Assembly: GCA_025617745.1 (NCBI GenBank)
Contig: CM046853.1
Location: 50,646,934-50,710,933 of the forward strand
From: Heliocidaris erythrogramma
Taxonomy: Eukaryota > Echinodermata > Echinoidea > Camarodonta > Echinometridae
Length of the DNA stretch: 64,000 nt
Reading direction: 5' to 3'
The position numbers were made by a program, and so were the translations under genes. Under the pieces are notes generated by a model, which saw only the letters and a program-made list of their open reading frames with translations, was not told the DNA's origin and did not search any database. Of this stretch, positions 1,017-25,733 are shown one piece after another. Numbering within the stretch: position 1 is the first letter of the stretch; each line of letters begins with the position of its first letter.

Positions 1017-1173
1017 CTAGTAGACGACCGGCCATACTGATGGTGGTTCGCAGTCTGAAGGCTCTCCATCACCGCAGAACCTATTATAAGTCATCTTGGT
1101 GTCAAACCCAAGTAGTTGCCTTTCCTCAAAGATACGGAATGTGAAAGTGGACTGGCCGGTGCCTACGAAGTAT
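1017..1173 (-). CDS. POFUT2: POFUT2 exon 8 (last coding exon)
   Basis: The acceptor is TATTTCAG/A. The exon encodes [20 protein letters not shown], then [18 protein letters not shown], and ends PVVY with stop codon TAG at 1017-1019. TYNRFCGD and the following Cys are family signatures. There is no KDEL-type tail. The 3' UTR runs directly into two MITE copies. Minus-strand AATAAA hexamers are present at 406-411 and 303-308, but I cannot tell which is used. Confidence 0.93.
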
Positions 1174-4100
1174 CTGAAATACAAATGAAAATAAATGTTG
1201 TTAAGCACAGGGGAGATTTAAACATGGTCCATGAAATTGGCTTCTAAAGTATAAGCTACTCTACACCAGTCACGGTTTATCAAACTTTATGTGTAACAGA
1301 CAATGCCTCATTATTACCTGAAATAATTGAATATACATGTATATATCTATAGCCATTACTTCATTACATGTGCCTCAGTAAACAAAATGAGAATCATTAC
1401 TACAACATGCAGCACTGCTTTTTATAACTCAAATAATAATTTACATTAGAAATCAATATGTTCAGACAGATGAAAAGTATTAAAGAAAAATTGAAGAATT
1501 GTGAAAAATTTGCATCATGGATTCCTTAACTCCAAATAACAAGTTCAAGGCAAGTTTTCTTGTTTCCTTCAAGTTTATCAGTAATCGACTTGCTAGATTG
1601 AAAACGAAAAACCCACAAACACTGAAATAGAGTTTGTTGCAGCATGTTTGTAAACATATATGAAATTTCTCTCCTTCTGCAAATTTGTTGAACATTAGTG
1701 AGTTCATCAAGGAAAATAAAGGCAAAATTGTTCCTGGACATACCATTTCTCATCCAATTTACTTCCCCAAAAGTTTTGAAATAACTTCATATGAAATGCA
1801 TACACACCTTGCATGAGCACAAATCCATTGATCTATAATAGCAACACCACCATCCATAAACTTGTCATGAACTGTCCTTGGAGGAATATAGTTGTACACC
1901 TCATACCCCTTTAGATGCACTTTCAACTGGTCAATTTCTGCGGAGTGAAAGTAAACATCCGATAGTTATCATGCACATGTGTGCGTATGGGTGCATAGAG
2001 TAGTCTACTCACAATTCGTTTTTATCCCAAAACTTGCAATTCTACAGAAGTAATATTTGAACCTGGGGTGGTATTCTGAGATTTATTTCATCTTGATTTT
2101 AGTGAAAAGATTTTAATTGTCATAACAACTTTTAAATTGCAACATTTCATTGGTGTTTGCGCAGATGAATTCCACGTACACAGCCACTTTTGCGCAGTCA
2201 TTAACCAATGATGTCGCCATAAGCGTACATTTTGTTATGACAATTAAAATTATTTCACTAAAATCAAGATAAAATAAATCTCAGAATACCACCCCTGATA
2301 TCTCGAATATAGTACTATATTAGCATGGAACCAAATCATTCAAAGCCCAGAATGCACTGGTCATTGGTCCTCTTAATGTTGGCTAGGTAAACCTTGGATA
2401 TGGAGTCATTCCTTGTCATTAGTTCTACTATTGATGTTAGCATCATTCATTTCTTTTACTTATCGAAAACAAGCTGCTGAAAACTGCTTATTCAATAAAA
2501 GCGCGCCAATGGAGTTTTACTTGGTACTTTTACTTGGTACTCTGAATTTACATTAAGATTTTGAAAATTTCAAGAAGGTTTATGCTAACCATTTTTTTAA
2601 AAATATTTTGTTTCAAATATTTGGAGATGAATGCTACAAAAATGAGTAATTGCTGCTTTCATTGATATAACAAAAAAAAAAGATTAGTTTACTTTAAAAG
2701 CAATCAGTTGGTTCATATACTTGTAACTGATTGTTATTATTTACCATGGTAATCCAATCTGAATTAATACCATTAATAATTAATACTTGAAGAAGAGAGT
2801 ATATTATATATGCTGTTATAGGTTATAGCATTTACAAAGTTTTTGAAGCCTAAAATGAAATCTTTCTTATCTGCAGATTGAAAGATATTTTCAATAGAAA
2901 TAATCTTTATGGTCATCTGCCGTCATTCTCTCTTTTCATAAACAAAGTCAGAACTACCTGAAAGTATGATTATTCTTGGCACATATACATCGCTATTAAA
3001 TTGTTTCTAAGTTTGTTAAATCCACTTTAAAAAAGAAAAATAGATTCCTCATTGTTAGAGGTGAAAATGACATACCACTAGCTGGGGCATCTGTTGCTAC
3101 AAAGACCTTCTTCAGTTTGAGTTCCTTCAGCTTCATTTTAATATGCTTGGCTGCTTTGGGTAAAGATGCCACCTCTTTCCTGTTGTTTCTCGCAAAATCT
3201 TGTCTTCGGAGGTGAACAGCAATGTAAGGACCACCTTTGGCACTACCTGCACTGGGCTAGAATAAAAAAGAAAATAAATTGGTCATTCATAAACACTGGC
3301 AGATTCATGGGGGGGGGGGGGGGGGTGTACAACTACCCTTTGCCACCCCCCCTCCTTTTTAGACCCAATCTGTACACAGAAACTAAAGGATTTTTGTTTT
3401 GCTCGTCATAATTTTTTTTAGATTTTTGCCCCCTTCCCATTTACTGAAACCTGGATTCACCCCTTGGGGCAGTTATTGAAATTCTGAATCTACAAAAATT
3501 GAACTTGAACCTCAAAGACATATTCAGTAAAATATTGTTGACCAATGATATACAATATGATTCTTGTATAACATAATTTTTCCATAAACTCCAGACTGGG
3601 TTATCTCAGGCTTAATATTCACTGGGTGAAAGCTTTAACCCTAATTTAAAGGGAATCTTGAGTTCTGGGAAAGGTGAAAAATAATTTGTGAGCTTTCTAA
3701 TTCCTTTTATGTCAGTTTGGAAGAACATCATAATAGAAACACTCCCTGAAAATGATTGCTCTTGAAATGCTCTTATATTCAAAATATAACTAGAAATAAC
3801 TGAAATGTTCAAGTGGAGCGTTCATTCCACTTGTGTAGTCCCATATACCCATTTCTGTGTGCAGTACATGTGCTTTTCAGTGAGCTTGGGTCAATTCCTT
3901 ATTTATTTTGATGATTCTAAGACAACATAGTATAAACATAGTATAAAACAATTCTTATGTAGACATGGTCAACCTTTCCCAATTGCTTTGAGACAGTTTT
4001 TTTCACAATGTAATTGCATGACCAAAACTCTACTTTATACCCCCCCCCCCCACCCCTTAGATCTGGGAGATCGAATGTCCGATTCACGCGAAATTTCGCA

Positions 4101-7100
4101 TGGAGGTACATTAAAGTATTAGCGATGTGTTCATGTTTTCGTTTAAATGATCCACAGTTAAATATGCAAATTATGTGCATATTAATTACCAAAATATGCT
4201 AATTTTCCTAATTTCTACATAAAAAAGTAGTAAAAAGTATTATATTGACTCAAAATGTTGTTTATTCCCATATAAAATAACAGGGAAAATTTGAGCAGTA
4301 ATTATCAAGTATGAATAGCATTTTTAGGATCGTGTTTGAATTTCTTATGTATTCCTTTGTTTTTCATTTCTGTTGTATTCTATTGTTCATATTTTTATGT
4401 TTTGTATTATTTTGACAATGATATTAGATATGACAACCATAAAGGCAAGGAAAAACAATTATATGGAAAAAAATGGATTGTATTTTCACAAGTTTCAGAA
4501 CATGTCCATTCTATTATACACACATGTATGGAAAAGTCACTGTTTTGGAATGACCTTTGACCCTTAATTGTCATGTGACCTTCTAATACTTGGTCCCATC
4601 TTTGCAAATTTAGTACCAAAAGTTGCGCAAGACTTCAAAGAAAAAAGTCAAGACAGGATATCTTGATATCTGCCAGTTTCGGAGTAATCGCTAAATTACT
4701 ACGGGGGGGGGGGGGGGCAAATTGACCCCCCCCCCCCAGTTAATATAGGGTTAAAGGGTGCAAGCTAGGATATTAACTAACAAAGTTTACACTTCTCTTC
4801 ACTCACAAAAAAAATAATTTCATCTGTATGAAGTGATTTAAAATAAAATAAAAACCTTTTTCATTTACTTTGATATGACAGTAAACTTCTAAATTGGTTT
4901 AAACTCCTATCAATCAGATGAGCATCCCACAACTTGGCTGCAAAGGACCTTAAGTTAAATGTCAACTCCTCATGGTACATTCCAAAAGTTTTTGGAAAAG
5001 TACACGTATAAAGCAGATAGGAATATAACTGAGCATGTATTTTTGCCTTTGAGGCATAAGCAGTTGCCTGAAAAAAAACATGTAATGTGAGGGTACTGTG
5101 AGATCTCTATTGATACTTTAAGTAATTATATTCTCTTTTTTGCAAAAAAAAATCATATTCTTCACCTTGCTACTTAACAGTTGTACGACACATACTCTAA
5201 TGACAATTGCTCCATGACCAAACTCCCACACCAACTGAATTCCGAACTTCAATGCTGAACCAAACTACACCTAACCCTAACCCTAACCCTAACCTAAAAC
5301 CTGATTACAACCCTTAACCCTTTATCTCTGACACAATAACACCCGGAGCAAATGTTGAATCACCCTTTTACCTTCATGTCTCTCCAGTCATCCACAATAA
5401 CTGTTTTGTCTTTATCATCGCTGGAATCCAGGTAAGTTTTTCGAAACTCGTCCCCGATATCTCTGAGAGGCTTAGCAAATCGTAGGCTTCGTCTTGCCTT
5501 CATGAAATAATAAAAATAATAATCACGGTATATGAAAATAATGAAAATAATCTATATCATTCCAATACTGCATACTGAAAATGGGTGTGCACTTTCCCCT
5601 GAAACACTGCTGACATAGCAGTGGTAGAATAAGAAATAGAATTCTTACATCCTGAATGTATCAGATGCTTGGTTTGGCAGCCTAGCTATAGCCAAGCTAA
5701 ATATGTTAAGGGATTTGGTGTGATTTGCATGATAGTAAATTAGTAATACAAAAATGGAACATTAGTGCAATATTTGGCATTATAAGCTATTTAATCCCCA
5801 CAAATGACATTTTCTCAAGCAGCAAAACCCATGCATAAATGATACAGGTACTATGGAAGATGAATGTAAACTAAAGCTCTCACAGATAGCGAAAGCTGAA
5901 AATTATTTGTCTATTCACATTTTTGTTATTTAGCATACTAAAAAAAGGGTAAAAACTAAATAATTGTATACCAAGCTCTTATCTAATAATGGAATGAGTG
6001 GTCTAAATAGTGATATTTGTAGAGAACTTCATATCACTGTGTCAACAAAATCATGGACTGCTTGTTCTAAAATGAAAATAACATTCACACAATATTTTTC
6101 ACATCTTTCTATATGGATGAATGTAATGACACTAAAATACAGTGAAAACAAACTTTGTTCTACTGCTTCATATGCATGCATGCAGATGAGTGAGTCATAT
6201 AATTCAGATAAAATCTGTCCTAGCCCCTTCCTCCATTTCTCTGTATCTTTCTCTCTCATTTACTGGTAATAACATCAACAATACGTAGTTTCTCCTGTAC
6301 TGCAAATGATATGAACAAGAAGTTACTACAGAACTCCTTGACATGAAGTAGGGATTAGACATAACAAGAGGAAAAGGACAAAACAACTAAGAACTTATTC
6401 AAAGTAAAATTGCATGCACTACAAACAGTAGGAAATACTTGATGGTCACTTGACAAATGGATAAAAGTAATGAACAGTCTGGATAAAAGTAATGAACAGT
6501 CTGGTCAAAATATAGGAAGAAATTAGTTTTATAAAGGGTTAGTAGAATTAAACAGAGCAAGGTTAGAAGTCATGCACATAGAGAAATGTGGAACAATAAA
6601 TTACAGTTTTGTTTATGACTTGAAGTGGCTTGAAAAAATAAATTAAATGACCCGACTTCCGGGTTTCTGTATGTATGAAAATTATGTCAATTAGAAATAT
6701 GATGTATAGCATCAAATTATAAGTCAACCTTAAAGTCCAAATTAAAAAGCAAAATCAGGGATACAGAACCAATAAGCAGACTATCAAATATTCAAATGCC
6801 AAAAATACATGTCCTAGATAGAAATTGGTGTTAGTTGTGGTAAAAACTAGTACACGTATCAAACGAGGCTTAAATTAAGTAACGCTGTGTCAAATCATAG
6901 CATCAAGCTAGATTGATTTATGTAAATTATGAGTTAATTTGTTCAAGTCTGAACAGTGTTTCAAAGCAGAGAGATCCTGCAGGGGGAGTGAGATAATGTC
7001 CGAGCACAGATAGGGAAATTAGATGCTACTCATTTATGGAATCCCCTATAAAAGAGGAGGATGTATCTATCTTGTAAATGTAAGATAGGAAAAGTACTTC

Positions 7101-10100
7101 TGGTCATTTAAGAGCCTAGAAACACACACTTGAAACCTATTTTTGCAACAATTACTTACACATTGTAGCTAGCTGTGAGCACTCGGAAAGAATTAATATT
7201 TAATTTTAACAAAATGTAATGTATCAGTAAATATTGCTTTAAAGATTAAATGCAAAAAAAAAAAAGAACACTTCAATGTGTTCTGCATATTTCTTTCATA
7301 ATATATTCTGTATAATAACTTGCAGGTGAAATGGCAGAAATTACTGAGGTCTGACTTACAGTAACTTTACTCTTTAACATTTATTTCTGTTATTCTATTA
7401 TATTTTTTTTCTTCATGGAATAAGAGGAACAGATGATAATTCAAGCAAATCTGAATCTTGAATACCCTAATGACAGAATAATACAATGTAAAGCACTTTG
7501 ATCAGTTTCTAACTGGAAAAGTAAAAATAAAAATGCAGACAGAATACCATTTCAGCCCATACACTACCAGTATCTGAATTTATATTAATCTTTCTGATGC
7601 TGGGAAGAAAAGAACGAGAGTCCACTTTTGCGGGCTAATTCTAAACAGTGAATACATCAATTTCTATATCAAACCCACCAACATAATTCTTTTTACTCTG
7701 GAGGCTCATGTGAAACAAATTTCAGAAAAAAATTCTTTTTACTGATCTGATAGGTCTGGATGTAAAAACGGTAAATCCTTAATAGCCCCTTTTAATGATA
7801 TTTCAACCCATCCACCTTAAAGGTTAAATCAAACTAACCGATTATCAGACCTATTTCCATATTTCCATCCATCTATGTAATGGCTCAGGCCATCAAACTA
7901 ATTCACCGACAAGGCCTATTTCCATAATTTTAAATTCAGCATGAACTTACGTTCCAGTATTCAACTTGTCCATAGTAATCATGAAGAACTTCTTCACAGC
8001 GAGACAATAGGACAGATCTAAGAAGGGTTGACCAGTAGGATGGATTATAGAACAGAAAGGAAAATTCAACAAGAAAGTGTACAGAAGTCAGGAATATTGA
8101 TTTTAAACATAAAGTAATGAAGAAAATAAGAAGGGAAATTAGGAAATAAATGAGGTGGGAATGATATTATATCCCTATATACATCATCAGAAAGTGTTCT
8201 TGACTTATTTTTCAAATATGAATAACTGAATCTATTCTGTTTTTACTGGAAATGAATAATAGAAAGTAAATACATCGAAGTAAATATATCAAAAATAATA
8301 AATGTTTGGGTTGTAACCAAAATTTGCAGTTGAAGATTTTTATATCAGGGTGTGATCAGTTCGTGTCACGGTTGTCTATTTCATAATTTTCCAAGTTGGG
8401 AGGCTTGTAAAAATAAGTAATTAGATGTGATGGATTGCTTTATGATTTACTGTGGAGTGTATCACTAGGTGTACTGAAAAATGATAAAATTTGGTTGTTA
8501 TTGTTACTTATTTAAATCAGAATCAATAAAATGCTCCATTTCTTAGAGTGGGAAATAGAAATTTTGTGTTGAATTCTCATTATCGTAGTCTATTTTTATC
8601 AGAACAACATGATCTTGTCTAATACTTTCACTTGCAATTACTAGTCAGATAAATTGGCTTCCCTATCAGACATTTGGAATTTTAAATCAAGCTTTAGATT
8701 TCAGAAGAGATGTGAAAAATGTGCATCACAGATGTAAATTTTGCTAAAAGTGTCATATTTTGACAACACCCCTGCTTTTAAATAGTTTGGTCCAAGAACT
8801 CTGGCACCTTAGAACCCTTTGAAGAACAAAATTTCTAGTAACTTTCAATGTATTTCATGGTAGTAATAGTCATTTAGTGTTTCAATTATTATTATGATAA
8901 AATATATTTGTGTCACGGACGCACAGAAATGCTCACTCTTAACCCTTTTGAGACAGTTAAACACATTTTGTGGTTTGGCTCAATAACTTTTGATTCACAG
9001 CTCTAAAAAATATACCAGACTCAAGAGTAGAAAGAGCAAAAATTTCTGCACACACTGTGTCCATTTTTGTTGCATGACCATATTGCGTTTGATACCAGGA
9101 ATTTTAAAAAGGAGAATAAGCTTCAAAGTCCTTAAATTGGCAACACATTGAGAGGTTCAGAATCATTGTTTTTTCTCAAAATGGGCAATTTTTTTCAACT
9201 TCTTGCCAAAACTTTACCCATGTTTGTTGTTTTCAAAGACATTACATTTTAATAGAACCATGTAGCACTATACAAAAAATATTATTTTGTTGCCAATTTG
9301 AAGAACAACATGTGATCAATTTAGCCCTCAAATAATTCCTGTCCTGAAAGGGTTAACCGATCACGCACATCAAATGATCTGATAATGATATGTTTGTTGA
9401 TTGACTTGTACATATAACAGCTGATTACACTACCAATCATATTTACCAGGTGCCATTATGAATTAGAGATAGATATTGAAAGAGAGAGAGAGAGAGCAGA
9501 GAGAGAGAAAGGAAGGATTTTCTTTAAAAGGAATTCAAAGCTTCATATTTCTGTTACCTGTGTGGTGCCGAACTGAATTACAAAAATATTTCCTGTAGAT
9601 CTTATGATTAAAACAACAAACCAAATAGTCTTATTGAATAATGATGTAACTCTTTCATATATAAGGAGACAAACAACATTAAAATTACAAGAATATTACA
9701 GGCAATAATTTTTACCCTGAAATATGATTAATATTGCACAAAAAGGACCAGATAAGTAAGAAGAAAATAAGAAGAAAAAGATGCAAGTGAATAAAAGAAA
9801 ATGAATACTTGCAAGCAGTATAAACCCTTAGAAATATCATAAATGATAACTCCTATACAATAATGATCTATTGATTATTATAACTACAGTATTGTTTGTG
9901 CTCAAAATTTAATTTTGAAAGATCAAGGGATCATCATGAAACAACTAAACTGAATATAAACAAATTTTAAGGTATCTAACCTCTACTCATAAAAAGTACC
10001 TCCCTACTCATGTGTTAAACGACAATGATATGCAATTGTGCTATGATTAATTTTCTATACAACAAACTGACATTCTTTTTCTAGATGTTAGGAAGGAGGA

Positions 10101-13100
10101 GATTAAATAATCTTACATTGTCATACTTACCAACACAGTTAGACACAAAAGCACTCAAAAAATGTAATGACACTACAATGGTTTATAATATGTATAGACA
10201 TGGTGAGATGATAATCTATCTACTTTTATGTAGGGGTCGTGGTTTTAAATAGTCCCATACTACCAAATTGTTAATATTGACTTGTAAGATATAAATGTAA
10301 CCAAAACATAATGATGCTGAATTAACATTGGTTGCACAGTCACAGAGGCCTCCATTTAAGAAAGGAATGAGCTCTTCAGAGAGAAAGTGATCAAGGCAAA
10401 GACGTTTGTTGAATGCAACAGTGTAACAGAAGCAAGAAGTGCAAGAGAAAGGAAATGACCACATAACCCATTACAGAAGAAAAATTCTGAGTAATTTTGC
10501 CACAAAAGTAACTTACTGCCCAATAATCTGACATCCCAAATGTATCATGCAGTACAGTTTCTGCTCTGTCAATCATAACTGATCTGAAGGTCAAAACACA
10601 TAAAATATCAAGTTTCCTAAAACTTACCCATCTTGGTTTGGTCATTGCAAGTGTCATCACTGCAAAAAAACCTAGTTGGCTTGCGACTAAGATCATGATA
10701 GATTATTACAAACCTTACTTTCAAACAAGCCGTGTGAGTGGCTAATTAATGATCTAATACAGTCCACTTGTACCTACATCAAAATGTCATTACTAATCAC
10801 TATTCTATCTTTTTGTTTCATATTTCCAAATTTAATAACCTTTACATAAATATCATATATCAAGTACTTGTACTAGAATTACTACAGCCATCTACAAACT
10901 CTTGTGGGCAGTTAACCCGATGCCCACACGGGAACCAGGTGGTCCCTGTATTAAGCCTATGAGAAAGAGAGAATTCAGACGGTTAACGGGTAAAGGTTTC
11001 AACTCCTTTTCACTGAAAAGGGGAAACACCTACAGTTAACCTTGCATAACTCGAAGTCGAATCAATCTTTTTGACCAAACCATGCAAAACATGTGGCATT
11101 TACTTCCTAAATCGAATTTTGCATAACTTGAACTATTTTTTGTGGGCCCAACAGATTCGACTTATGCAAAGTTAACTGTGTCTTTAATGTAAAGTAACAT
11201 TTTCTTTAGATAAGCGGGAAAAAGTGAGATGAGTATCAATTCATATTACCTTGCAGTTATATTCTGCGTGAGGTAGGGGATGAGGGACCCAGCAACGCCC
11301 TGAATGGAAAGACACCTGAAGTTTTGAGCGTAAGCATCCGAGTATCCCCAGTACCAGCCTTTGTACTTCCCTTCACCATTCTTGTGGTACGTTGGGGGGT
11401 CATTACACTCTCTCTCATGCATCCTCTCCTCCCATTTCCCATTGGTCCAACCCTCTTTGTAACTCTGCAGATACACATGCTCGTCAATCACTGCTTCACC
11501 CGTAACTGTACATCAAAGATGATTCCAGTCAAGAAAGATACATTTACATGTACAGCAGATTATTTCATTCTTGTTTAAGTTCTTCAGCTAATGTTCTTTG
11601 TAATATCATGATTCCTTGTATAGTGCATTACTAAGCTATATTCTTAAAGTAGAACACTAATGATTTTAAATATTGGCTTAATACTTATTATTGCATAGAT
11701 GGCATAAATTAAACAAGGTTATCCAAATTTAAAGCTTGGAAACATTTGAATTAATGATTATTATCAATTATAAAACGGTAAAATACAGCCCCCGATATAG
11801 CAGTTGAAAAGCTCCTTGAACGCTGCTGAGATGTGTGACGACACAAGAGGGGCGAGTCCTGTCTAAGCAGACGATGTCCCATAACATTATACACATTTTT
11901 CAGTGCCTGTTTTGTCATCTCCTCTTCACTTATTTCTCTTACTTGACTAGCGTCAGTTTTTTTTTTTTTTTTTTTTTTCTTTTAGCCCTTCCACAGGGTT
12001 CCTTTATTTACAAAAAATATCATACATAAAATTATACAAGAATAGGTATATATACATGCAGAATTTCAAAATGATATTCTTGGCCATCAATATACGAACA
12101 TACATTTACAAAAATCAATTACATGTAAAGCAAATTCTTTTCAAGATCTACTTGGCAAACAAATTTGTAAGAAAAAAAAAACAACAAACAATCAGAAACA
12201 TTGAGTAAACTGTAACCATTTTTTCATGAATTTCTTTTCTTTCAGATTTGTTTTACATATATATTTTTCCATATCATAGTAATATTTTATTGCTGACATG
12301 ATGTTTTCAAAAAATGGTAAACAGTTTTTGCATTTGGCTACAAATATTTCTTTTCTTACTACAATCATAATACAGTTGAGGGCACTATTATTACGTCCAT
12401 GAAACCCAAACAATTTATTTTGATTTGTAAGCTTAATGTGCATATTATTACGAGACAGCCAAAGCTCAAATTTTGCCCATATTTTGTTTGAATAAATACA
12501 TGAACAAAATATATGCATGATTGTTTCTTCATTGTTATTACAAAATGTACATAGGTTATCTGTTACTAACTTAAATCTTAACAAAGCGTCTTTCATATAA
12601 AGAATTCTATTCAGCAGCGTGATCTGAAACCACCTCATGTTTATATCGACAGTTGAATTATAGGGTATTTGGTAATAAGAACTCCATATGATAATGTCAA
12701 GATCAAACTCCTGTTTCCATTTTGTAAGACTTTTACATTCCTTTACCTTATGTTTCAAAAACGAATTATAAATATGTGAACAACCTTTTTTCACTTTCAG
12801 TATTAAAGACAATGCTTCAGGGATAATACATGTAGGTTCCATGATCTTTGGTATGACACTTTTATTAAAACCAGATCGAATAGCGTTACACAGGCCATAA
12901 TATTGAAGAAAGTTTACTTGTACATTGTATTTACGTTTAAAATCAAAGTATGATAGAAATGATCCATCTGTTTTTAAAACATCGTTAACAAAACGTACCC
13001 CCTTAGCACACCAAGACTTGAAATAAATTACATTATTATTGACCTGTATTCTAAGATTATTCCAAAGGGGTTGACATGCAATATCATCTACAATGGATTG

Positions 13101-16100
13101 AGTAAGATCTGCAAAGGCTACTAATACCTCTTTCCAAAATGGATTGCGCATTGAAACTGCTAATTCTTTGTAATGTTCAGCCCCCATGAATAATTGAAGA
13201 GACGTATATGATGGAGGCAAGAATGATAGGAACATATGGAAAGTAAAATTTTCATTACTTGGACAAGAAATAAATCTTCTTATCCATGATATTTTGAGTG
13301 ATTTAGAATGCATAAAAATGTCAGTCATTTTTACCCCACCATCAATATATAATTGGCACATTTGTTTCCTACTTATTTTATCAGGTTTACCATGCCATAT
13401 AAATTCGAAAAAACATCGGTTAACATTATTCATAATTTCTGATTTTGGTTCTGGAAAAGATAAAAGCAAGTAATTCAGTTTGGGTATCAATAAGGATTTT
13501 ATTATGGTTACTCTCCCTAAGGGAGTCAGTGTTCTTTTTAGCCAAATCGCCATCTGACGTTTTATCTCTGTAACCTTTTCTTGATAATTGTGATTAACCA
13601 TTTCTGATAATTTAACTGAAAAATCTATACCCAGGTACCTAAAATATCCTTCAGATATCCAGTTTAGTTTGTACTCGTGTAAAATCTCTTTCTTGAAAGT
13701 TCTGTTCTTCCCAATCCATATCACTTGAGTTTTAGTTATGTTAATTTTGAGGTTGGACATATTTGCAAATTCATTAAGTATTGTAAGGGCACGTTGTAAA
13801 TCCTGTGTTGAACCGTTAAGTGTTAAAATAGTATCATCTGCATATTGCAATAGTTTAAGCGTTTTCCCATTCATATGCAATCCAACTAAAGAATCTGAGT
13901 GTCGCATTAGGATACCAAGTATCTCACTGACTAACAAAAAGAGGTATGGGGACAAAGGATCTCCCTGACGACACCCTCGTCCTATTTCAAATCTATCTGT
14001 ACAGTGTCCGTTAACTAATACACAAGAGGATGCATTTGCATAAAATAACTTGATCCACTTCTTTACAGATGGACCGAAGTTAAAGAAATCCAGAACCTTG
14101 AAAAGAAAATTATGCGATACGGAATCGAATGCCTTTTCGAAATCAACAACGAGAAGCATGCCAGCTATATCATTTAATTCAGTATAAAGTAGAGTGTCAT
14201 ATAATAAACGTATGTTTTCACCAATAAAGCGACCACTCAAAAATCCTGTTTGATTTTCATGTATTAAAAAAGACAAAACGCCCTTGAGTCTATTTGCAAT
14301 ACAACCGGATGCTAATTTGTAAACTACATTTAGTAAGGAGATCGGTCGCCAATTTTTTAATAGATGTCTAGGTTCGTTTCCTTTCGGAATCAAAGTTATT
14401 ATTCCCATTTTTTGTGAGTTAGACAATTGTGTTGAGAAATACGCATAATTCAATGATCTTACTAGAAAGTATTTAATATCTTCCCAAAAATAACGATAGA
14501 ATTCTACAGTAAAACCATCTTGTCCTGGAGATTTATTATTTTTCATGAGTTTTAAAGTGGAATAGACCTCGTCAACACTAAGTGGACCTTCCAGTAATGA
14601 GGACAATTTTGAGGACAACTTAGGAATGTCAGGATAATTCAATAATATTTCCAAGTTAATTTCATCAGTTTCTTTTTCCTTATAAAGATTAGAGTAAAAA
14701 TCAAACACTTCCTTGAGTATGTCACTTTGTCTATCTAAAATGTCACCATTTTCAGTCGATAACTGACGTATTTCTTTATTAATATTATTTTGTTTTTCTA
14801 AATTTAAAAAGAATTTAGAAGGTTTTTCTCCAAACTCCATCCACTTTATCCGAGATCTAATCGCAATTCCTTCATTTGTTTTTAAACGAAAAGCTTCCAA
14901 TTCTGATTTTAATTTATCAATTTCCTCTAATACAGAAGTCTTATCATCAAATATTATCAATTTTCTTTCTAACTCTTCAATTTTCTTTTCTAAATCCATT
15001 TCCATGTTCACTCTTTGTTTTTTGGCGAAAGAGGCATATGATATTGCTTCTCCGCGTATTATCATCATTAAAGTTTCAAAAAATAACTGATCATTTATGA
15101 TAAATTCACAATTGCCGACTATGCAATCGTTTTGATCGAACTTTGCTTCGTCTTTAGCATAAAACAGAATAGTATCTTTTATAGTTTTCTTAATTTGTGA
15201 AACAAAACTTCCGTTTTTTAACAAGGAATTATTAAATTTCCAAAAACCACGGCCTCGTTTTATTTGATTCAAACTGAGACTTAGAAGAATTAAGGAGTGA
15301 TCTGTTCGATAACCTGAAAGAATATCGACTTTGTGCACTAATGAAAGAAGTTCTGAAGATATCAAAAAAAAATCTGATCTACTCTGTTTAAAAGGGGTAG
15401 GTTGCCGCCATGTATAATATCTTTTATCTGGAAATCTAATTCTCCAAGGATCGCATAAATCTACTTCATTCTTCATATTATTTACTTGTTGTTTCGCTCG
15501 CGGGTTATTAACATTCAAATAGTTATATGTATCAAGGGTTGAATCTTGTACTAAATTCCAGTCCCCACAAACAATAGCATGTGGATTCTCAAAGTTTATT
15601 ATAATTTGTTGAAGGTCAGCAAAAAATGTTGGGTTGTCTGTGTTCGGACCATACAACGATGCAATAGTAATATTATAATCGTACAACGTCACATCTAAAA
15701 CCACAAAGTTCCCTGTATTATCTACTTTAAACCTATTTATATTTACCGGGAGAGTGTTTTTAAAAAGGATTGCTACTCCTCTTGAGTTAGACGTGTTGAA
15801 AGAGAAAAAGCATTTACCTTCCCATTCCCTCCGTATTTCAGTTTCTATATCTGGAACAAAGTGTGTATCTTGAATACAACATACATCATATTGCTTTGAT
15901 TTTAAATATAACAGAACATCTTGTCTTTTGCGACTATCTCCTAGGCCGCGACAATTCATGGAAATAAAAGTAACATTATCCTGCATTATATATGACATTA
16001 ATGAAGGAAAGAAAGGAGGAACTACCTGTGGAAGTTTTCATTTTATGCACACAAACATTAAGGACACAAAAACAAATATACAGCGACAAAAACATGACAA

Positions 16101-19100
16101 TACACACAACACAAAACAAAACACACAAACGTTTGGACGCGACGCAACGCATCAGAGCTGAATGACGATCAGCTGCGAACAGACAATCAACCCCCAAGTT
16201 CCGGATCAATATATGGAAATGTATCCGTAAAAATCTATGTCCCAAACCCTTAATGTCTTTAAGACCGTGACTGCATACGTACTAGATTCTATAATGATAA
16301 GAATATCGAAGTCTTAATCTAACCTATATCAGCTGTTTAAAAATATAACATGTACAGTATAATTTGTGAAAGTAGACTGAATGATGATTATTCAAGAATG
16401 CAACCATGAATGAAATTAGACTACCGTGTAATATATATTATGTATATATACACAGAAGTAACACTCTATGAATCAACAGAAATGAGTTATTTGAAACAAT
16501 CAGGCATTAAGGTCAAGAAATATGAATAAGATGATAGTATTTTGACCATGTCGCGCTAAACGTTCATTTAAAAGTGAATATCTGAATAATGAACTTCGGC
16601 TCCGGATCATATTCTCTCATTTTCTTTGCAAATTGACAACCTTAATAATTATGTCAACATGTACTTAAACATTCCAGTTTGCCTGTTTTTATGATAACCA
16701 CATAATTATTTTGCATACTGAAATACTTCAACGAAGAGTTAATATGAATATGAATATGAATCAAGTCAAAGGTTTAGAAAAAACAAGTCCCAGGTTTGGA
16801 ATAAAATGTTTATCTGATTTTTTTTCTTTATTAACTTTTCCATTTAGCCCTTTCATATAAAGCTATCATTATTAGTTCATAGCTCACGATATCTAACACG
16901 ATATTTGTTAATTTCGTTTAAAACACGACAACGTAATCTTATAAGAAATTCACTTGTCTTTAAGACACATTGATGAGAACATCTTTATCTTATTCAATTA
17001 AAAAAATTGCTCGCGAGTTGGCATATGCCAATCGGAAAACGGTTACTCCTTTAAGTAACCCTGAAATGAATAAAACTATGAGAAAGAGTTAACATGCTAC
17101 CAGTTTCTTTCTTCCTGACTGCAGAATATGATCACACAGATGGAGGGGGAAAAAAACACTTTACATATATATGGAAACATCGAATTCCATTGCAACGGAA
17201 GAGTGATATCTAAACCGCCAATCAACCAAAAAATTGCCATTCAATTCTCAAAAACAATAGACCATTATACAGTAGTTGGTCAAAACCACTAGTTGGTAAG
17301 ACTTCCAATTGTAAACCCATTAGCTTTTTACATTAGTGTGTAATAAGACCATTCGCTATAAAGGCGTATACACTTGCTAAAATGAACTTTTGAAATTTAA
17401 AACAAGAGATCAGGATGTAAAGGTAAGGGAAGTATAAAGGTGAAAAAAAAAAATAGCCCAATATATCACATGAGACATGAGCGCAGTATACTGTATTCCC
17501 TTAATATCACCTTGACTTCACCAAATCATTCAGGTCCCATAATACTATGAAATATTTATACCACACACCGAAAAAAAAAACCCTTTAAAGTTTAAAGTAA
17601 GCATTGATTTCCATTGTGTGGTGATAAACAAGTCACAAAAATTTACAATACCATGACCTGGTGAAGTTTGGATTTCTAATAAAGCTGTTTCCTATTATAA
17701 ACCTAATGTAATTTTGATTCATGACATTTTACCCACTACTTGGTTACATCATTCAAAACATAACAAAGATATAACATGTCACGTATAAAGACTGGCACCA
17801 AATTCGTATGAACAGGCAAGTCATTATACTTGGTCTACTTCAAACATTTCAATGCTTTGCTCATGAATTATCAAGTGTAAAACAAATGACGGTTATTAAA
17901 TCATGCACTCAGACTTAAATGAAGAATAGTATTAAAATGGGTATACTTTACCGTCTATTTTTTACCCACTATATGAAGTATACTCATCTACACAACACTA
18001 GCCTGAATGTACATATTATATGTATAAAAAATCGATGATTATTCCGAAGGGGAATTCAACTAATCCTAGCTACTTTAGTAGCTGGTCAAACGTTTCTAAT
18101 TACACCATACTTCCACTCTTGAACCAAGAAGTAATATTACCCGTATATAGCATTCGATATGTATGCTTTAAAAAGCTTCTGAGTAAGTGTTCAAGCCTAG
18201 AAAAAAAAAAAAAAAAAAAAAAAAAAGACCGTCGTATCACATGAGTTATATACCTTCATTGAAGATGAATACTCAAAAATAGATTCCTTGGGTCTTTTTA
18301 CTGCATAGTGATAACCCTGACTTCATTAACATTTTTCAGGATCATGACATAGATATTTCACACATCGAAAAAAATAAATATGCAAGGTGATCTTTGATTT
18401 ACATTATGTGATGACAAACACGTCACAAGTTTTACTATAACATGGCTTGGTGGTGTTCAACTTTCCTGCTTTAGTTGTTTCTTATTAATATAAACCATAA
18501 TAAGTATTTCAAACCGTCTTGGGTTACTTTGATTTAAAACTCAACTATTCTTACAAGAAGCCACTTTTTCCTTGGATAGGTAACGTATAAGAATCGTGAT
18601 TCTTATCAATATGATTAACAAACATTTTCGTCCTTTGTCATATTTTTTTTTCTATCAGATATAGTCAGTCCATTTTCTGCTGTACTTTGTTTTGTTTTTC
18701 AAATCCGTAAATGAAAATCATAGTTTCCATATTTTGAGAGATCTCAGTATGTAGTTCTCTCTTCACATTTCGGTTGGGTCTTTTATATCTCTACAGTTCG
18801 CGAATTATAATATAATGAACAAATATACAAACTTAACTTTCTCTTTTTCATTTTTGAAATTATTAGATCGTAACGTACAGGCATGAACAAGCAACAGTTT
18901 ATAAAGAAACACGACTCATACATCCGCTAGATCAACGGGCGCATTCACATCTATCTCGATCACGTCCAAAATGCGATGATCGCGCAAATAATCATAAACT
19001 GACGACTTGGCAAATTGGAATCACCACTCAATCCAAAATAAGGCAGTTTATGATAGTCCACTTCAGTTGACATCAAAATTCAAAGGTTTTCATTTCGATT

Positions 19101-22100
19101 CATCCACCCGTAGAAACTTTGAATCACTCACTCATTAACAACACGCCATGCAGACGAAGATCCCTTCTCCCTACACTCTAGATGCAGATTTACACCATTT
19201 AACTTGATTCTTGTAGACTTATTCTCATTTTTTCTCATCTGATACGCTCTTTGCTCGAGTAAGAATCGCTTCCTCTTCAATGGTGCAGGTAAGTCGGTCA
19301 CGATACGGAAAGTGTGACGAACAGCAGCTTGACCTTCAGAGGTCACCGGACGAAATTGCGCTCGTTGGTATGCATTCAAGACGGAATCACGTTCTAACAT
19401 GGCGCCAAACCTTACTATGATTGGATCATGACCACGTTGCTCACTTCCGGGTATGACACGTCGTGGAAGTCGATGTGCGTTCGCAATAAATATATACTGA
19501 GCCTCCTCCTGACAGAAACCCAACTTCTGAAATATGTTTCTCACTACTTCTATAACTCTTTCATCTTTCTTTTTCTCCACTCCATATATCAATAGATTCA
19601 TTTTTCGATCATGTATTTCCATTGCCATTATCATTTGCTTCAATTCATTTTCGAGGTTTTCGTTCTTCTTCTGCATCTTAGGCAAAACATCGCTTTCAAT
19701 CGCAGTAAGCCTTGCGCCAGAATCCGCGACTGCGGTTTGTAAATCAGACATATCTACTCGCATTTCAGAGATTTCACTGCGGATCACTGTCACATTAGCA
19801 TTCAGAGTATCTAGCTTTTCGATGATTTTTTCTGTTGTTTTAACGAAGTCAGAATGACTCACCATATCAGTATCCCTCGTCGAGACGGGGGGCGCCATCT
19901 TGTCCTTCGCTGAAGTGAACGAGCAATGTGTGGGATTTGTTGTGCACCCGGGCGTAATGAGAAGTGGGTCTGTTGTAGATGACGTCTCTCCCGTTTGAGT
20001 GCCCGACGTAGCACCAGTAGTGGCCTGTAGTGCAGATAGTGTAGTTTCCACTTGTGTAGTGTCAGAAGTAGTTGGGTTGTTGGTTTCCTTGTTTCTTAAC
20101 AAATACGGATCCCTTTCTGGTCTGGTAGATTTACTCCTTTTGCTCATAATAATAGTGGTAATGGAGCAATGACAAAATAGTAAGATCCGGAAAAAAAAGG
20201 AAAATTAATCTGTCCCCATATTAGACCGCCATGCCTTCTCCATTGCGTGCGTGCGTCCTTATTGCGTGCGTGCGTCAGTTTTAATGTTAGTCTGTTGCCT
20301 CACTCTTAACTTCGTGTATGGTATTATTTTGATGAAAAATGCAGCGTTAAAAAAATAAAGGAATCAGTCACTTGTAAACAAAATAAGACGCCATTGTATT
20401 TTCAGCTGCTTGCACCGGGGCATGTTCGGCGTTTCAAGAGGGAACGAATACCATCCAGCTATTATTCGCAGGGCTTTTCAATTTGAAAATGGGGTTTATT
20501 TCATTGATCATTGACCCTTCTCCTGTGTATTTACAATCAAACGGTTTTAGTTATCAGAATCAGTTCACTTTCCTTTTTAGAATGGTGTGAAATAAGGTCA
20601 TGTTTAAATGTACCAAACTCTTTATAATTTGATAAATAATTGCATTGCAATTACGTTCATTCATTATAGGACGTCGTCTGCTTAAGCAGGATCGATCCCT
20701 CGTATGACGACATCAAAACATCGCTATATTTCTGGCGAATCCTCGGATATTCCACATGCTGAGAAGAGCTTTTATTTATGTTGTTTTTATAATCATCATA
20801 TACGCAGTTGACATAAAACTTATACGATTGCCATCTGTAAGCTTCCCAATTTCTAGTGATACATTAATTGCCATATTTGTGATTTTCTTGAGTGTTCTAC
20901 TTTAAGCCAATCAGCTATACAAGATCTAATCATTTTCATGTCATCATTTTGAATGTTCTTTGAAATTTCTTTCTTACACCATCATCCAATGGCAGTTTAA
21001 TTTCTTCATAGCACAATCTGTGCCACTCCATGCTTCAGGTTATAATTTTGCATTTAAAAATGTACCAGGGAGTATAATGATCCACAAGGTATTTGATTTT
21101 TGTTTACATGGAATTGACTTATTTACAGCAAATGAATACAATACATAAAGAGATAACATCATTTCGTAAAAGGGGACAGATAATAGCGCATGTGCTGATA
21201 AGGTTTAGCCATTACAGTAAAATTGTATACTTCTGTAATTATACACTAAGAAAAAAAGTGAGAGAATGGCTGATAAATTTTGATGGTTACAAGAAGCTTG
21301 GTGCTAGAATTTGGACCTTGCCTTTACTAATGCAGCCCTGAATCCAATACAATACTTACTTTTGATATAATCTTCAAATTCAATAACAGGAACATGACGA
21401 TTCAAACTCCCCACATCGAAAAATGTTGACCACGGTATGCGTACTTGCTGCATGTTCCTTGATTTCCAATGGTAGAGCCTGCCCCATGGTGGAAGGACAA
21501 GAACCCAATTGTTTTTCTCTTGCAGTTTCTTTACCAGGTTAGCTATTCTCATGTAAACATCTCGTCTCAGATTAAAGCCCTCTCCTGGATTCACATCATA
21601 CAGGAGGTACCTGCATCAAGTATAGTATAATCAGAAATTTCAGGTCAGTGTATTCAATTTCAAACAATTTATGAAACTTTTTAGTCTCACTTTTGTTTCA
21701 CTTCAAAAAAGAAGATTTTTCAGAATATTTTTTGATATTTACAAGTCAAAGGAAGTCTGCATTTAAACAACATATAGAACTGAATGGAAGTGTGATTGAC
21801 TTTTACTACGACATGATAAGAATCTACCTTACAATTTTCATGTGGTTTTATTCAAATACTTGGGCCAAAATAGATTTTAAAGACAAGTCCATCCTGACAT
21901 TACACCCAATAAAAGCAGAAAAATGAGTGAATTGATGTATGGAACTTTGAGGTATATCTGATAAAGAATAACTTATGAATTTAAAAAATTGTAATCCATC
22001 AAACAGATATTGGCAACTCTATGAACACCTCTCCCATTAGTTGTACTAAAAACAAAAGACCATGGATTTCCATTTTCTCAGTTGTTGATCTGATGAAGAG

Positions 22101-25100: not shown

Positions 25101-25733
25101 CCTTTGCTTTGGCTTTGCTCAATCAAATTAATTCAATAATTCATTGAATGGCACTCAGTTCAGAGACATTATTTATTAATAATAAATAGTGCAAACATTT
25201 AGTTTTAAAGTCTAACTGTAAGCAACTTAGATCCTCATCCAAGTAATTCAATATGAATCGTGCAACAGGGGCTGCAAATATTTATACTAGACAATGCTAG
25301 ACTCAGCGCTTGCAAGAATATGCAAATCATTAACCCACTGAAATTGATTGACATTGTCTTTGAAAATAGCCCCCAAAATGACACGTTTCTCAATATGATG
25401 GGACTGAACAACCAGGCTGACGTGTTACCTTTGAGGTTTTGCTTGTCCCATTTTCATTTCAAACTTTCCTCCCGGTGCAAAAAGCAGATCATCCTCCAAA
25501 GTCTCAGTATGGACTTGATCGGTGACAATACAAATAATCAGACAACAAATTTGGACGCTTTTCCACGCCCACGAAGAAGAAGCAGCCATGTTTTCGAACA
25601 TCTTGATCTTGGCATCGATAGCAGTACAGGCGCCGATTGTAGCTATCGGTACTTCCGCTCGGGGGTGTCCACCCGGCCCGCCACCGGCACCTCCAGGTCC
25701 AGCCCCGCCCCCCTCCTTCCATCTATGCTCCAT
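1017..25733 (-). CDS. POFUT2: POFUT2, GDP-fucose protein O-fucosyltransferase 2 (whole gene, 8 coding exons)
   Basis: In animals this ER-luminal enzyme transfers fucose from GDP-fucose to Ser/Thr of folded thrombospondin type 1 repeats. Coding exons in transcript order are 25429-25733, 21360-21610, 11250-11505, 10517-10583 (or the alternative 7951-8017), 5372-5497, 3076-3256, 1808-1937 and 1017-1173. All junctions have GT/AG and the phases join to one frame: 490 residues from the first ATG, 446 from the preferred ATG at 25601. Human POFUT2 has 429. Numbering from the 446-residue form, [11 protein letters not shown] (65-75) carries the Glu assigned as catalytic base in the human enzyme. VHLRRQDF (305-312) is the Arg-rich GDP-fucose motif, and DQWICAHAR and TYNRFCGD are C-terminal family signatures. 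A hydrophobic signal lies in exon 1. Introns carry many mobile elements, including an 8.3-kb LINE in intron 2. Identification is from family motifs recognised by eye. Confidence 0.95.
1808..1937 (-). CDS. POFUT2: POFUT2 exon 7
   Basis: This exon is 130 nt long, with acceptor CTCCGCAG/AA and donor GCAAG/GTGTGT. It encodes [17 protein letters not shown], then [18 protein letters not shown]. The block [14 protein letters not shown] is essentially the family sequence near the sugar-nucleotide pocket. Confidence 0.95.
2065..2295. mobile_element. Fold-back MITE in POFUT2 intron 6
   Basis: The 231-bp element has near-perfect inverted arms of about 63 bp. The left arm begins GGGGTGGTATTCTGAGATTT and the right arm is its complement ending ATACCACCCC. 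Only scattered mismatches separate the arms, so it is young or structurally constrained. No coding capacity was seen. Confidence 0.85.
3076..3256 (-). CDS. POFUT2: POFUT2 exon 6 (GDP-fucose binding motif)
   Basis: This exon is 181 nt long, with acceptor TTATTCTAG/C and donor GCTAGTG/GTATGT. It encodes [19 protein letters not shown] and [19 protein letters not shown] is the conserved Arg motif of O-fucosyltransferases that contacts GDP-fucose, and VFVATDA is the following strand/loop motif of the C-terminal Rossmann-like domain. Confidence 0.95.
5270..5294. repeat. Interstitial telomere-like repeat (CCCTAA)n
   Basis: About four copies of CCCTAA lie within POFUT2 intron 5, 75 bp from exon 5. 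The motif is that of most animal telomeres. It is short and internal. Confidence 0.8.
5372..5497 (-). CDS. POFUT2: POFUT2 exon 5
   Basis: This exon is 126 nt long and phase 0 at both ends, with acceptor ATGAAG/G and donor ATGAAG/GTAAAA. It encodes [20 protein letters not shown], then [10 protein letters not shown] and VDDWRDMK, corresponding to the RRSMVFARHLREVGDEFR ... DDWMKMK segment of the family. The acceptor lacks a strong pyrimidine tract. An AG four bases further in is rejected because it would break the frame with either exon 4 copy. Confidence 0.92.
6459..6505. repeat. Short tandem duplication
   Basis: A 23-24-base unit containing GGATAAAAGTAATGAACAGT is present twice in a row in POFUT2 intron 4. 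Confidence 0.7.
7951..8017 (-). CDS. POFUT2: POFUT2 exon 4b (alternative copy of exon 4)
   Basis: This exon is 67 nt long, with acceptor CCCTTCTTAG/A and donor TGGAAC/GTAAGT. After the split Arg it encodes [16 protein letters not shown] then VEYWN, again the family block. It is identical in length and phase to exon 4a. By my hand count 11 of 22 residues and 32 of 67 bases match exon 4a. Residues kept in both are SV, R, E, VLHD, G and YW. There is no stop and both splice signals are good, so this looks like an old, selectively maintained exon duplication rather than debris. Use in transcripts is inferred, not shown. Confidence 0.82.
8943..9352. mobile_element. TTAA-flanked non-autonomous DNA element (piggyBac-like)
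   Basis: TTAA sits immediately outside both ends (8939-8942 and 9353-9356). The termini are CCCTTTTGAGACAG and CTGTCCTGAAAGGG. A TTAA duplication plus CCC-starting inverted ends is the piggyBac pattern. There is no ORF of note. It lies between the two alternative POFUT2 exon-4 copies. Confidence 0.65.
9478..9508. repeat. (GA)n microsatellite
   Basis: A run of AGAG repeats with one interruption inside POFUT2 intron 4. Confidence 0.85.
10517..10583 (-). CDS. POFUT2: POFUT2 exon 4a (first of two alternative exon-4 copies)
   Basis: This exon is 67 nt long, with acceptor GACCTTCAG/A and donor TGGGCA/GTAAGT. After the split Arg it encodes [13 protein letters not shown] ... SDYWA, matching the family block SVMLDRAENLLHD ... 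KEYWD. It starts with one base and ends in phase 0, exactly like the copy at 7951-8017. Including both would add 134 nt and shift the frame. Confidence 0.9.
11033..11178. mobile_element. Short MITE with CAGTTAAC ends (pogo/Tigger-like)
   Basis: The 146-bp element opens with CAGTTAACCTTGCATAACTC and closes with the matching GACTTATGCAAAGTTAACTG. It is flanked by TA on the left and TG on the right, suggesting a decayed TA duplication. It lies in the short POFUT2 intron 3, about 70 bp from the exon 3 donor. The family assignment is inferred from the CAG start and TA target. Confidence 0.6.
11250..11505 (-). CDS. POFUT2: POFUT2 exon 3
   Basis: This exon is 256 nt long, with acceptor TGTACAG/TT and donor GCAAG/GTAATA. 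It encodes [13 protein letters not shown], then [11 protein letters not shown] and [12 protein letters not shown], and ends QNITAR. The family equivalents in human are the LQSYAEGW, YRGWFWGY and CLSVQGSAS blocks. The N-I-T sequon falls where human POFUT2 has N-T-S, so it is a likely conserved glycosylation site. The large LINE-bearing element begins only about 140 bp upstream of this exon's acceptor. Confidence 0.95.
12192..15998 (-). CDS. LINE ORF2: AP-like endonuclease plus reverse transcriptase
   Basis: The protein has 1268 residues with no internal stop. Residues 1-240 form an APE-type endonuclease ([12 protein letters not shown] at 15, SLYGPN near 114, CGDWNL near 144, SRSDFFLIS near 206, YRTDHSL near 230). 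It nicks the target DNA. Residues about 535-800 form the reverse transcriptase ([13 protein letters not shown] near 549, [10 protein letters not shown] near 618, [15 protein letters not shown] near 673, catalytic YADD at 719-722, FRYLGIDF near 786). A C-terminal zinc-binding-like cluster C1150, C1153, H1162, C1165 matches the zf-RVT region common in L1/Tx1 proteins. The endonuclease metal-binding motif usually written QET reads QDT (43-45), a conservative change. A Lys/Glu-rich helical linker lies around 330-375. Confidence 0.95.
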   Translation of the reverse strand: MSYIMQDNVTFISMNCRGLGDSRKRQDVLLYLKSKQYDVCCIQDTHFVPDIETEIRREWEGKCFFSFNTSNSRGVAILFKNTLPVNINRFKVDNTGNFVVLDVTLYDYNITIASLYGPNTDNPTFFADLQQIIINFENPHAIVCGDWNLVQDSTLDTYNYLNVNNPRAKQQVNNMKNEVDLCDPWRIRFPDKRYYTWRQPTPFKQSRSDFFLISSELLSLVHKVDILSGYRTDHSLILLSLSLNQIKRGRGFWKFNNSLLKNGSFVSQIKKTIKDTILFYAKDEAKFDQNDCIVGNCEFIINDQLFFETLMMIIRGEAISYASFAKKQRVNMEMDLEKKIEELERKLIIFDDKTSVLEEIDKLKSELEAFRLKTNEGIAIRSRIKWMEFGEKPSKFFLNLEKQNNINKEIRQLSTENGDILDRQSDILKEVFDFYSNLYKEKETDEINLEILLNYPDIPKLSSKLSSLLEGPLSVDEVYSTLKLMKNNKSPGQDGFTVEFYRYFWEDIKYFLVRSLNYAYFSTQLSNSQKMGIITLIPKGNEPRHLLKNWRPISLLNVVYKLASGCIANRLKGVLSFLIHENQTGFLSGRFIGENIRLLYDTLLYTELNDIAGMLLVVDFEKAFDSVSHNFLFKVLDFFNFGPSVKKWIKLFYANASSCVLVNGHCTDRFEIGRGCRQGDPLSPYLFLLVSEILGILMRHSDSLVGLHMNGKTLKLLQYADDTILTLNGSTQDLQRALTILNEFANMSNLKINITKTQVIWIGKNRTFKKEILHEYKLNWISEGYFRYLGIDFSVKLSEMVNHNYQEKVTEIKRQMAIWLKRTLTPLGRVTIIKSLLIPKLNYLLLSFPEPKSEIMNNVNRCFFEFIWHGKPDKISRKQMCQLYIDGGVKMTDIFMHSKSLKISWIRRFISCPSNENFTFHMFLSFLPPSYTSLQLFMGAEHYKELAVSMRNPFWKEVLVAFADLTQSIVDDIACQPLWNNLRIQVNNNVIYFKSWCAKGVRFVNDVLKTDGSFLSYFDFKRKYNVQVNFLQYYGLCNAIRSGFNKSVIPKIMEPTCIIPEALSLILKVKKGCSHIYNSFLKHKVKECKSLTKWKQEFDLDIIIWSSYYQIPYNSTVDINMRWFQITLLNRILYMKDALLRFKLVTDNLCTFCNNNEETIMHIFCSCIYSNKIWAKFELWLSRNNMHIKLTNQNKLFGFHGRNNSALNCIMIVVRKEIFVAKCKNCLPFFENIMSAIKYYYDMEKYICKTNLKEKKFMKKWLQFTQCF
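16022..19127 (-). other. LINE inter-ORF spacer with an internal ~790-bp duplication
   Basis: There is no long ORF in about 3.1 kb between ORF1 and ORF2. Two related blocks (roughly 17270-18050 and 18070-18860) lie in direct order. Matching landmarks are a poly-A run followed by TATCACATGAG (about 17441 and 18200), then GTGGTGATAAACAAGTCAC against GTGATGACAAACACGTCAC (about 17620 and 18406), then CATGACCTGGTG against CATGGCTTGGTG. It may be a promoter/regulatory repeat of the element or an old secondary duplication. Confidence 0.6.
19128..20147 (-). CDS. LINE ORF1: coiled-coil/RRM nucleic-acid-binding protein
   Basis: The protein has 339 residues. Residues 1-95 form a Thr/Ser-rich N-terminus with a basic start. 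A heptad-rich coiled coil spans about 100-180 ([26 protein letters not shown]). An RRM-like domain spans about 183-262 ([11 protein letters not shown], then DPIIVRFG), and a C-terminal basic domain about 275-330 ([15 protein letters not shown]). This is the L1 ORF1p layout: a trimerising RNA-binding chaperone that coats the element's RNA. The ORF is intact and lies about 124 bp from the element's 5' end. Confidence 0.9.
   Translation of the reverse strand: MSKRSKSTRPERDPYLLRNKETNNPTTSDTTQVETTLSALQATTGATSGTQTGETSSTTDPLLITPGCTTNPTHCSFTSAKDKMAPPVSTRDTDMVSHSDFVKTTEKIIEKLDTLNANVTVIRSEISEMRVDMSDLQTAVADSGARLTAIESDVLPKMQKKNENLENELKQMIMAMEIHDRKMNLLIYGVEKKKDERVIEVVRNIFQKLGFCQEEAQYIFIANAHRLPRRVIPGSEQRGHDPIIVRFGAMLERDSVLNAYQRAQFRPVTSEGQAAVRHTFRIVTDLPAPLKRKRFLLEQRAYQMRKNENKSTRIKLNGVNLHLECREKGSSSAWRVVNE
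21360..21610 (-). CDS. POFUT2: POFUT2 exon 2 (catalytic N-terminal motif)
   Basis: This exon is 251 nt long, with acceptor ATGCAG/G and donor AAAA/GTAAGT. It encodes [20 protein letters not shown], then [24 protein letters not shown] and [11 protein letters not shown]. These are continuous, highly recognisable POFUT2 blocks of the first GT-B domain, including the [11 protein letters not shown] loop with the putative catalytic Glu. It ends one base into the Ile codon finished by exon 3. Confidence 0.95.
21960..22115. repeat. Partial copy of the 46852-47392 fold-back element arm
   Basis: The stretch containing GTAATCCATCAAACAG, TTGGCAACTC, CCTCTCCCATTAG and CAGTTGTTGAT follows the same order of words as the left arm near 46970-47090. 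It is diverged and incomplete, in POFUT2 intron 1. Confidence 0.55.
22600..25428. other. Rest of POFUT2 intron 1: unclassified repeats, no gene seen
   Basis: It contains a (TA)n run at 23612-23636 and a GC-richer island at 24450-24520. The stretch around 22740-23800 reads like repetitive, non-coding DNA; its GCGGCGGCCTTC word recurs near 27549. I see no convincing exon apart from the POFUT2 ones. Confidence 0.4.
25429..25733 (-). CDS. POFUT2: POFUT2 exon 1 (signal peptide and start)
   Basis: The frame opens right after in-frame stops (TAG TGA ATG). Three in-frame ATGs are candidates: 25733, 25601 and 25589. I prefer 25601 or 25589, because the segment [13 protein letters not shown] then sits where a cleavable signal peptide should be and the protein has family length (446 or 442). 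The ATG at 25589 has A at -3 and G at +4. The first ATG would add a Gly/Pro-rich stretch of 44 residues not expected in the family. The exon ends ...CCTCAAAG before GTAACA, leaving two bases of the Arg codon that exon 2 completes as RYLLYDV. Confidence 0.88.

Follow-up and report, generated by a model that had tools for sequence, protein, structure and literature searches.

Two versions of POFUT2 exon 4 in the echinoid Heliocidaris erythrogramma: a probable pair of mutually exclusive exons

Mutually exclusive exons that arose by tandem duplication are a known phenomenon. In FGFR2 the choice falls between two homologous alternative exons, IIIb and IIIc, and nonsense-mediated decay has reportedly been linked to their either/or expression (Jones 2001). 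While the FGFR pair encodes part of a receptor immunoglobulin domain (IgIII; PMC5703972, accessible text), the pair of homologous exons described here encodes 22 residues of a glycosyltransferase of the endoplasmic reticulum (ER), the GDP-fucose protein O-fucosyltransferase 2 (POFUT2, family GT68) of Heliocidaris erythrogramma. The gene was found on the minus strand of a 64,000-nucleotide stretch of the genome (GCA_025617745.1, contig CM046853.1, positions 50,646,934 to 50,710,933), hereafter the window. Its exon 4 is present in two versions, 4a and 4b; very probably they are tandem duplicates, both kept as mutually exclusive exons, and the echinoid probably produces two isoforms of the enzyme.

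We found no report of mutually exclusive exons in POFUT2 in the open-licence literature, where the case appears to be new; an earlier mention is possible in Loriol 2006, which is said by its title to deal with POFUT genes and their splice variants. POFUT2 is usually described as one enzyme that handles dozens of dissimilar thrombospondin repeats. According to the accessible text of PMC11990869, its clients in the ER are folded thrombospondin repeats, carried by ADAMTS, thrombospondin and other proteins of the matrix; 49 putative targets are listed for human, and mouse embryos that lack the enzyme die. PMC6096484 (accessible text) attributes its capacity to accept so many unlike repeats to a small number of direct contacts and a network of waters. 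Each of the solved human and Caenorhabditis elegans POFUT2 proteins (PDB 4AP5/4AP6 and 5FOE/8AY1), which belong to the same family and correspond to the echinoid enzyme over its full length from exon 2 on, has one version of the exon 4 block. No mention of a duplicated exon 4 occurs in the accessible text of two papers on POFUT2 splicing (PMC3655985, PMC3935309).

A procedure for predicting mutually exclusive exons from length, frame, splice type and homology was given by Pillmann et al. 2011 (PMC3228551, accessible text), with a default score cut-off of 0.15; in a control on the Drosophila X chromosome, 0.56% (90/16180) of the non-exclusive exons had the features of such pairs. Exons 4a and 4b, known here from the genome sequence, agree in length, splice-site pattern, frame and similarity and encode at least 15 residues each; their normalised BLOSUM62 score is 0.53-0.56, against that published cut-off of 0.15.

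Anatomy of the gene and of the exon pair

The exons of the gene are as follows.

25429..25601, minus strand: exon 1, coding part, with the start Met and a signal-like peptide; donor AAG/GTAACA
21360..21610, minus strand: exon 2; its NPGEGFN holds the counterpart of catalytic Glu54
11250..11505, minus strand: exon 3, ending with the AG of a split Arg codon; donor AAG/GTAATA
10517..10583, minus strand: exon 4a, 67 nucleotides (nt), 22 residues
7951..8017, minus strand: exon 4b, 67 nt, 22 residues
5372..5497, minus strand: exon 5, the acceptor for 4a or 4b; acceptor ends AAG
3076..3256, minus strand: exon 6, with the HLRR motif (equivalent of His292/Arg294)
1808..1937, minus strand: exon 7
1017..1173, minus strand: exon 8, with the stop codon TAG

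Exons 4a and 4b lie 2,499 nt apart. Each completes the same split Arg codon, ends in phase 0 and is directly followed by GTAAGT, so that the coordinates, 67-nt length, split-Arg phase and GT-AG borders given in the original prediction could be confirmed. The two exons are identical at 32/67 bases and 11/22 residues, in keeping with the predicted agreement of about half of the residues and about 48% of the bases, and the variable block was correctly placed at residues 228-249 of the 446 (58 residues to the split Arg plus index 170). The description of the splice sites as good holds on the intron side, where both exons have GTAAGT, and is less apt for the 4a donor as a whole: over nine positions of the donor consensus, 4a matches at 6/9, a count shared with exon 6 and the lowest in the gene, and 4b at 8/9.

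Segments of the form AG-67nt-GT number 336 on the two strands of the window, with 88 of them open in the phase of the exon. When these segments were scored against the human and worm block, 4a reached 159 and 4b 155, and the next best segment reached 11, by which chance homology was rejected. A crude splice-site rule was passed by 7 of the 336 segments, 4a and 4b being among the seven. When the window was scanned in all six frames without gaps, no third copy of exon 4 was found, the best other stretch scoring 30 against 124 and 118 for the two exons. An artefact of assembly or haplotype was also rejected, given the 48% of shared bases, the 2.5-kb spacing and the single occurrence of each exon region: the 101-base region around either version was found once in the genome (such counts are lower bounds).

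The gene on the minus strand is complete, and its product of 446 amino acids begins with what by inspection is a signal-like peptide. The part encoded from exon 2 on (388 amino acids) was compared in both isoforms with Pfam and with solved structures. The Pfam family O-FucT (PF10250) was matched at 163.5 bits by each isoform (cut-off 31.5). The match to human POFUT2 (PDB 4AP5) has 476.5 bits (E-value 5.4e-142) for isoform a and 476.7 bits (4.7e-142) for isoform b, and the match to C. elegans POFUT2 has 411.9 and 408.8 bits, respectively; the two isoforms fit the human enzyme equally and the worm enzyme nearly equally. Equivalents of human Glu54 (in NPGEGFN), His292 and Arg294 (in HLRR), which are catalytic or donor-binding, and of the donor contacts Ser387-Thr388-Phe389 (STF) are present in the alignment with the human chain (residue roles and numbering from PMC6096484, accessible text). 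Judged by these sequence matches the gene is POFUT2, with a predicted activity of O-fucosylation of thrombospondin type 1 repeats.

Protein and DNA searches of the genome (1.064 Gb in 26 contigs) produced neither a second POFUT2 gene nor a retrocopy covering exon 4. Of the 11 protein matches obtained with isoform a at E-values up to 10, eight belonged to the gene itself, one (E-value 1.6e-5, covering exons 2-3) to a fragment on contig C14, and two were weak, on contigs C9 (E-value 0.67, 30% identity, two stops) and C20 (E-value 1.3, 27%, one stop); exon 4b was absent from these matches, unsurprisingly for an exon so short and so diverged. The DNA search returned eight POFUT2 exons and the same fragment. 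The latter (C14:22388785-22388864, minus strand) consists of 80 bases of spliced POFUT2 (94% identity) in which exon 2 runs directly into exon 3; it supports the exon 2-3 junction and is the single direct trace of splicing. In the surrounding 9.9 kb the coding sequence had no further counterpart, and the 3' stretch was matched solely by short AT-rich runs. The fragment is probably a scrap of reverse-transcribed POFUT2 message, and its presence suggests past insertion of a copy of spliced message into the genome. With isoform b and six peptide patterns, no relatives were found in viral contigs.

Conservation and age of the two copies

In the exon 4 block, 13 of the 22 positions are invariant between human and C. 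elegans POFUT2; 4a keeps 11 of the 13, 4b keeps nine, and eight are kept by both. Exon 4a has lost the second His and the Tyr of HDHYG (HY to TF); exon 4b has lost the Met, the Asp, the Ala and the same His as 4a, and has gained a new Cys. Mostly different family positions are changed in the two copies, which would fit a division of labour. Outside exon 4 the enzyme keeps 132 of 164 columns that are invariant between human and worm, and, as far as the Fisher test can tell with such small numbers, neither copy is distinguishable in conservation from the rest of the protein (p 1.0 for 4a, 0.30 for 4b).

The retention of these positions was compared with simulated drift. At 35 random changes, the number that separates the two copies, no run out of 300,000 in each direction kept as many family positions as were observed (the best kept 8/13), and in 100,000 runs per direction the observed score was never reached. 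About 30-36% of the runs with 35 changes stayed open; therefore, an open frame alone is little evidence. After milder drift starting from 4a, 0.5% of runs had an open frame with at least nine positions kept when 18 changes were made, and 0.013% when 25 were made. Long neutral drift of either copy is, within this simulation, excluded. Identity between 4a and 4b at the three codon positions is 12, 14 and 5 of 22; on this comparison the pattern is one of coding constraint with worn third positions.

Residue identities within the block of 22 are 11 between 4a and 4b, 13 between 4a and human, 13 between 4b and human, 13 between 4a and C. elegans, 10 between 4b and C. elegans and 13 between human and C. 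elegans, and among the 11 residues common to 4a and 4b four (one of them Trp) have the same codon. The duplication is judged to be old because the pair has diverged about as much as the block has between human and worm (11 versus 13 of 22) and shares few codons; the earlier view of an old duplication with both copies kept open is borne out by this divergence together with the conservation, while four short sequences (4a, 4b, human, worm) cannot date the event beyond 'old'. A recent duplication with matching flanks was rejected: in comparison of 600 nt on each side, the best match was 19 nt long with an E-value of 0.09.

One could argue that a single copy is used and that its duplicate was silenced recently or is in decay. 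The slightly smaller number of invariant positions in 4b (9/13 versus 11/13 in 4a) or the 6/9 match of the 4a donor would be in line with such a history. Still, splice sites, open frame and family positions are kept in both copies (the Fisher values above, with their small numbers, apply here as well), and as long neutral drift is excluded by the simulation, any loss of use would have to be fairly recent. We consider this explanation improbable, albeit the best placed of the alternatives.

How the choice might be made

In the mechanism that we favour, exon 4 of POFUT2 would have been duplicated in tandem long ago, and the spliceosome would join exon 3 to either 4a or 4b and then to exon 5. The two products would differ only at residues 228-249 (214-235 in human), just ahead of a conserved RRS segment. 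With 4a alone or 4b alone, the reading frame is open through to the stop in exon 8. Since 67 nt is a multiple of three plus one, inclusion or skipping of both exons shifts the frame. When both are included, the stop falls within 4b, at nt 769 of 1408, ∼480 nt upstream of the last junction (1251), as expected from the original argument that double inclusion shifts the frame and forces a choice; when both are skipped, it falls in exon 5, at nt 802 of 1274, ∼315 nt upstream of the last junction (1117). A stop codon so far ahead of the last junction is expected to expose a message to nonsense-mediated decay. Messages with both exons or with neither would probably be removed in this way after meeting an early stop, with the frame enforcing the choice; decay is described as a contributor to exclusive splicing in the accessible text of PMC6071210. 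This backstop of frame and decay, along with ordinary regulatory proteins, would be expected to govern which exon is used. What stands of the original reading as a mutually exclusive pair is the either/or anatomy and the conservation of both exons; from these we infer the use of both, the regulation of the choice by tissue or stage and the decay of wrong products.

Other devices for exclusivity that are named in PMC6071210 were considered. Steric exclusion by a too-short intron was rejected, with 2,499 nt separating 4a from 4b. The minor-type (U12) donor consensus is RTATCCTT; all borders of the gene are GT-AG and by inspection no donor reads like that consensus, making a mixed U2/U12 arrangement unlikely.

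Competing or looping intronic RNA structures of the Dscam type could also enforce the choice, in place of a control exerted mainly by frame, decay and proteins. Among three tested intron pairs the strongest duplex, at -35.8 kcal/mol, is formed on the minus strand by a CU-rich tract between 4a and 4b (9467-9525) with a GA-rich tract after 4b (6226-6275). It would loop out 4b, and it exceeds all three mononucleotide shuffles (best -32.9) and all nine dinucleotide shuffles (best -35.1). However, the margin over the latter is just 0.7 kcal/mol, the CU and GA tracts resemble simple repeats, the duplex is the best of three intron pairs, and the other two pairs are within or below their shuffles. Of the 12 inverted repeats in 5372-11505, seven straddle 4b, close to chance by our estimate that about half would do so if placed at random. 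CU-rich tracts bind PTB-type regulators. Enforcement by RNA structure, a variant of the mutually exclusive reading, appears to us slightly less probable still than the loss of one copy.

A poison exon, by which regulated double inclusion or skipping would lower POFUT2 through nonsense-mediated decay rather than yield a second protein, accounts for the stops far upstream of the last junction and is nevertheless very improbable, as a pure poison exon would need no conserved protein block, yet 4b keeps 9/13 family positions and can replace 4a in frame.

Also on the minus strand, 44 nt ahead of 4a, a 32-nt stretch (10628-10659) is flanked by an acceptor-like tttttttgcag and by a GTAAGT donor. It is probably too close to 4a to be spliced onto it and could act as a splicing decoy. 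Its donor region is complementary to exon 5 (5431-5448) at 16/18 positions, about the chance level by a rough estimate.

Several considerations count against a mutually exclusive pair. Its basis is one genome sequence, and use of both versions of exon 4 is deduced from gene anatomy and conservation; the conservation test speaks for past selection on both copies rather than for present use. Exon 4b retains fewer family positions (9/13) than 4a (11/13), and the donor of 4a has the joint-lowest consensus match in the gene (6/9). The only spliced POFUT2 fragment elsewhere in the genome ends ahead of exon 4, and long-range pairing in the introns is at most marginally above shuffles.

Neighbouring elements and the possible role of the variable segment

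Intron 2 of POFUT2 harbours an apparently full-length retroelement without long terminal repeats (non-LTR), oriented in the same direction as the gene (11957-20200, minus strand). Both of its open reading frames (ORFs) are uninterrupted: ORF 1 (19128-20147) encodes 339 amino acids with no Pfam match above cut-off, and ORF 2 (12192-15998) encodes 1268 amino acids with endonuclease, reverse transcriptase and zf-RVT domains. Two slightly overlapping frames at 43216-44171 (minus strand), with Tc3-type helix-turn-helix and DDE_3 domains, are apparently a Tc1/mariner-like transposase split in two. An uninterrupted ORF of 169 amino acids at 33434-33943 (minus strand) opens with a signal-like sequence, contains several Cys and five consecutive Arg, and has no Pfam match; it possibly encodes a secreted peptide precursor, with the Arg run as a possible processing site. 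No Rfam families were found in the window.

The exon 4 block aligns without gaps with residues 214-235 of human POFUT2. In sequence these residues fall between loop 141-155, which lines the acceptor cleft, and loop 260-287 in the C-terminal domain; the accessible text of PMC6096484 names no GDP-fucose contact and no loop within them. By its position in the sequence, the variable segment would be located between the two GT-B domains, as predicted. A role in client choice, by tuning the fit of thrombospondin type 1 repeats, is conceivable, and a role in stability or inter-domain packing equally so; substrate-repeat preference or stability was the effect supposed in the original prediction.

One could speculate that POFUT2 is a two-state enzyme, in which an ancient exon switch, which may date back to the split of the major animal groups, alters a segment of 22 residues ahead of the C-terminal half, and the isoforms divide between them classes of repeats (e.g. 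group 1 and group 2) or cell types; we regard this extension as rather doubtful. If both exons are indeed used, a glycosyltransferase would join the genes thought to use exclusive exons, and the pair would provide two natural variants of one segment, both tested by selection, with which client choice, stability and partner binding may be probed.

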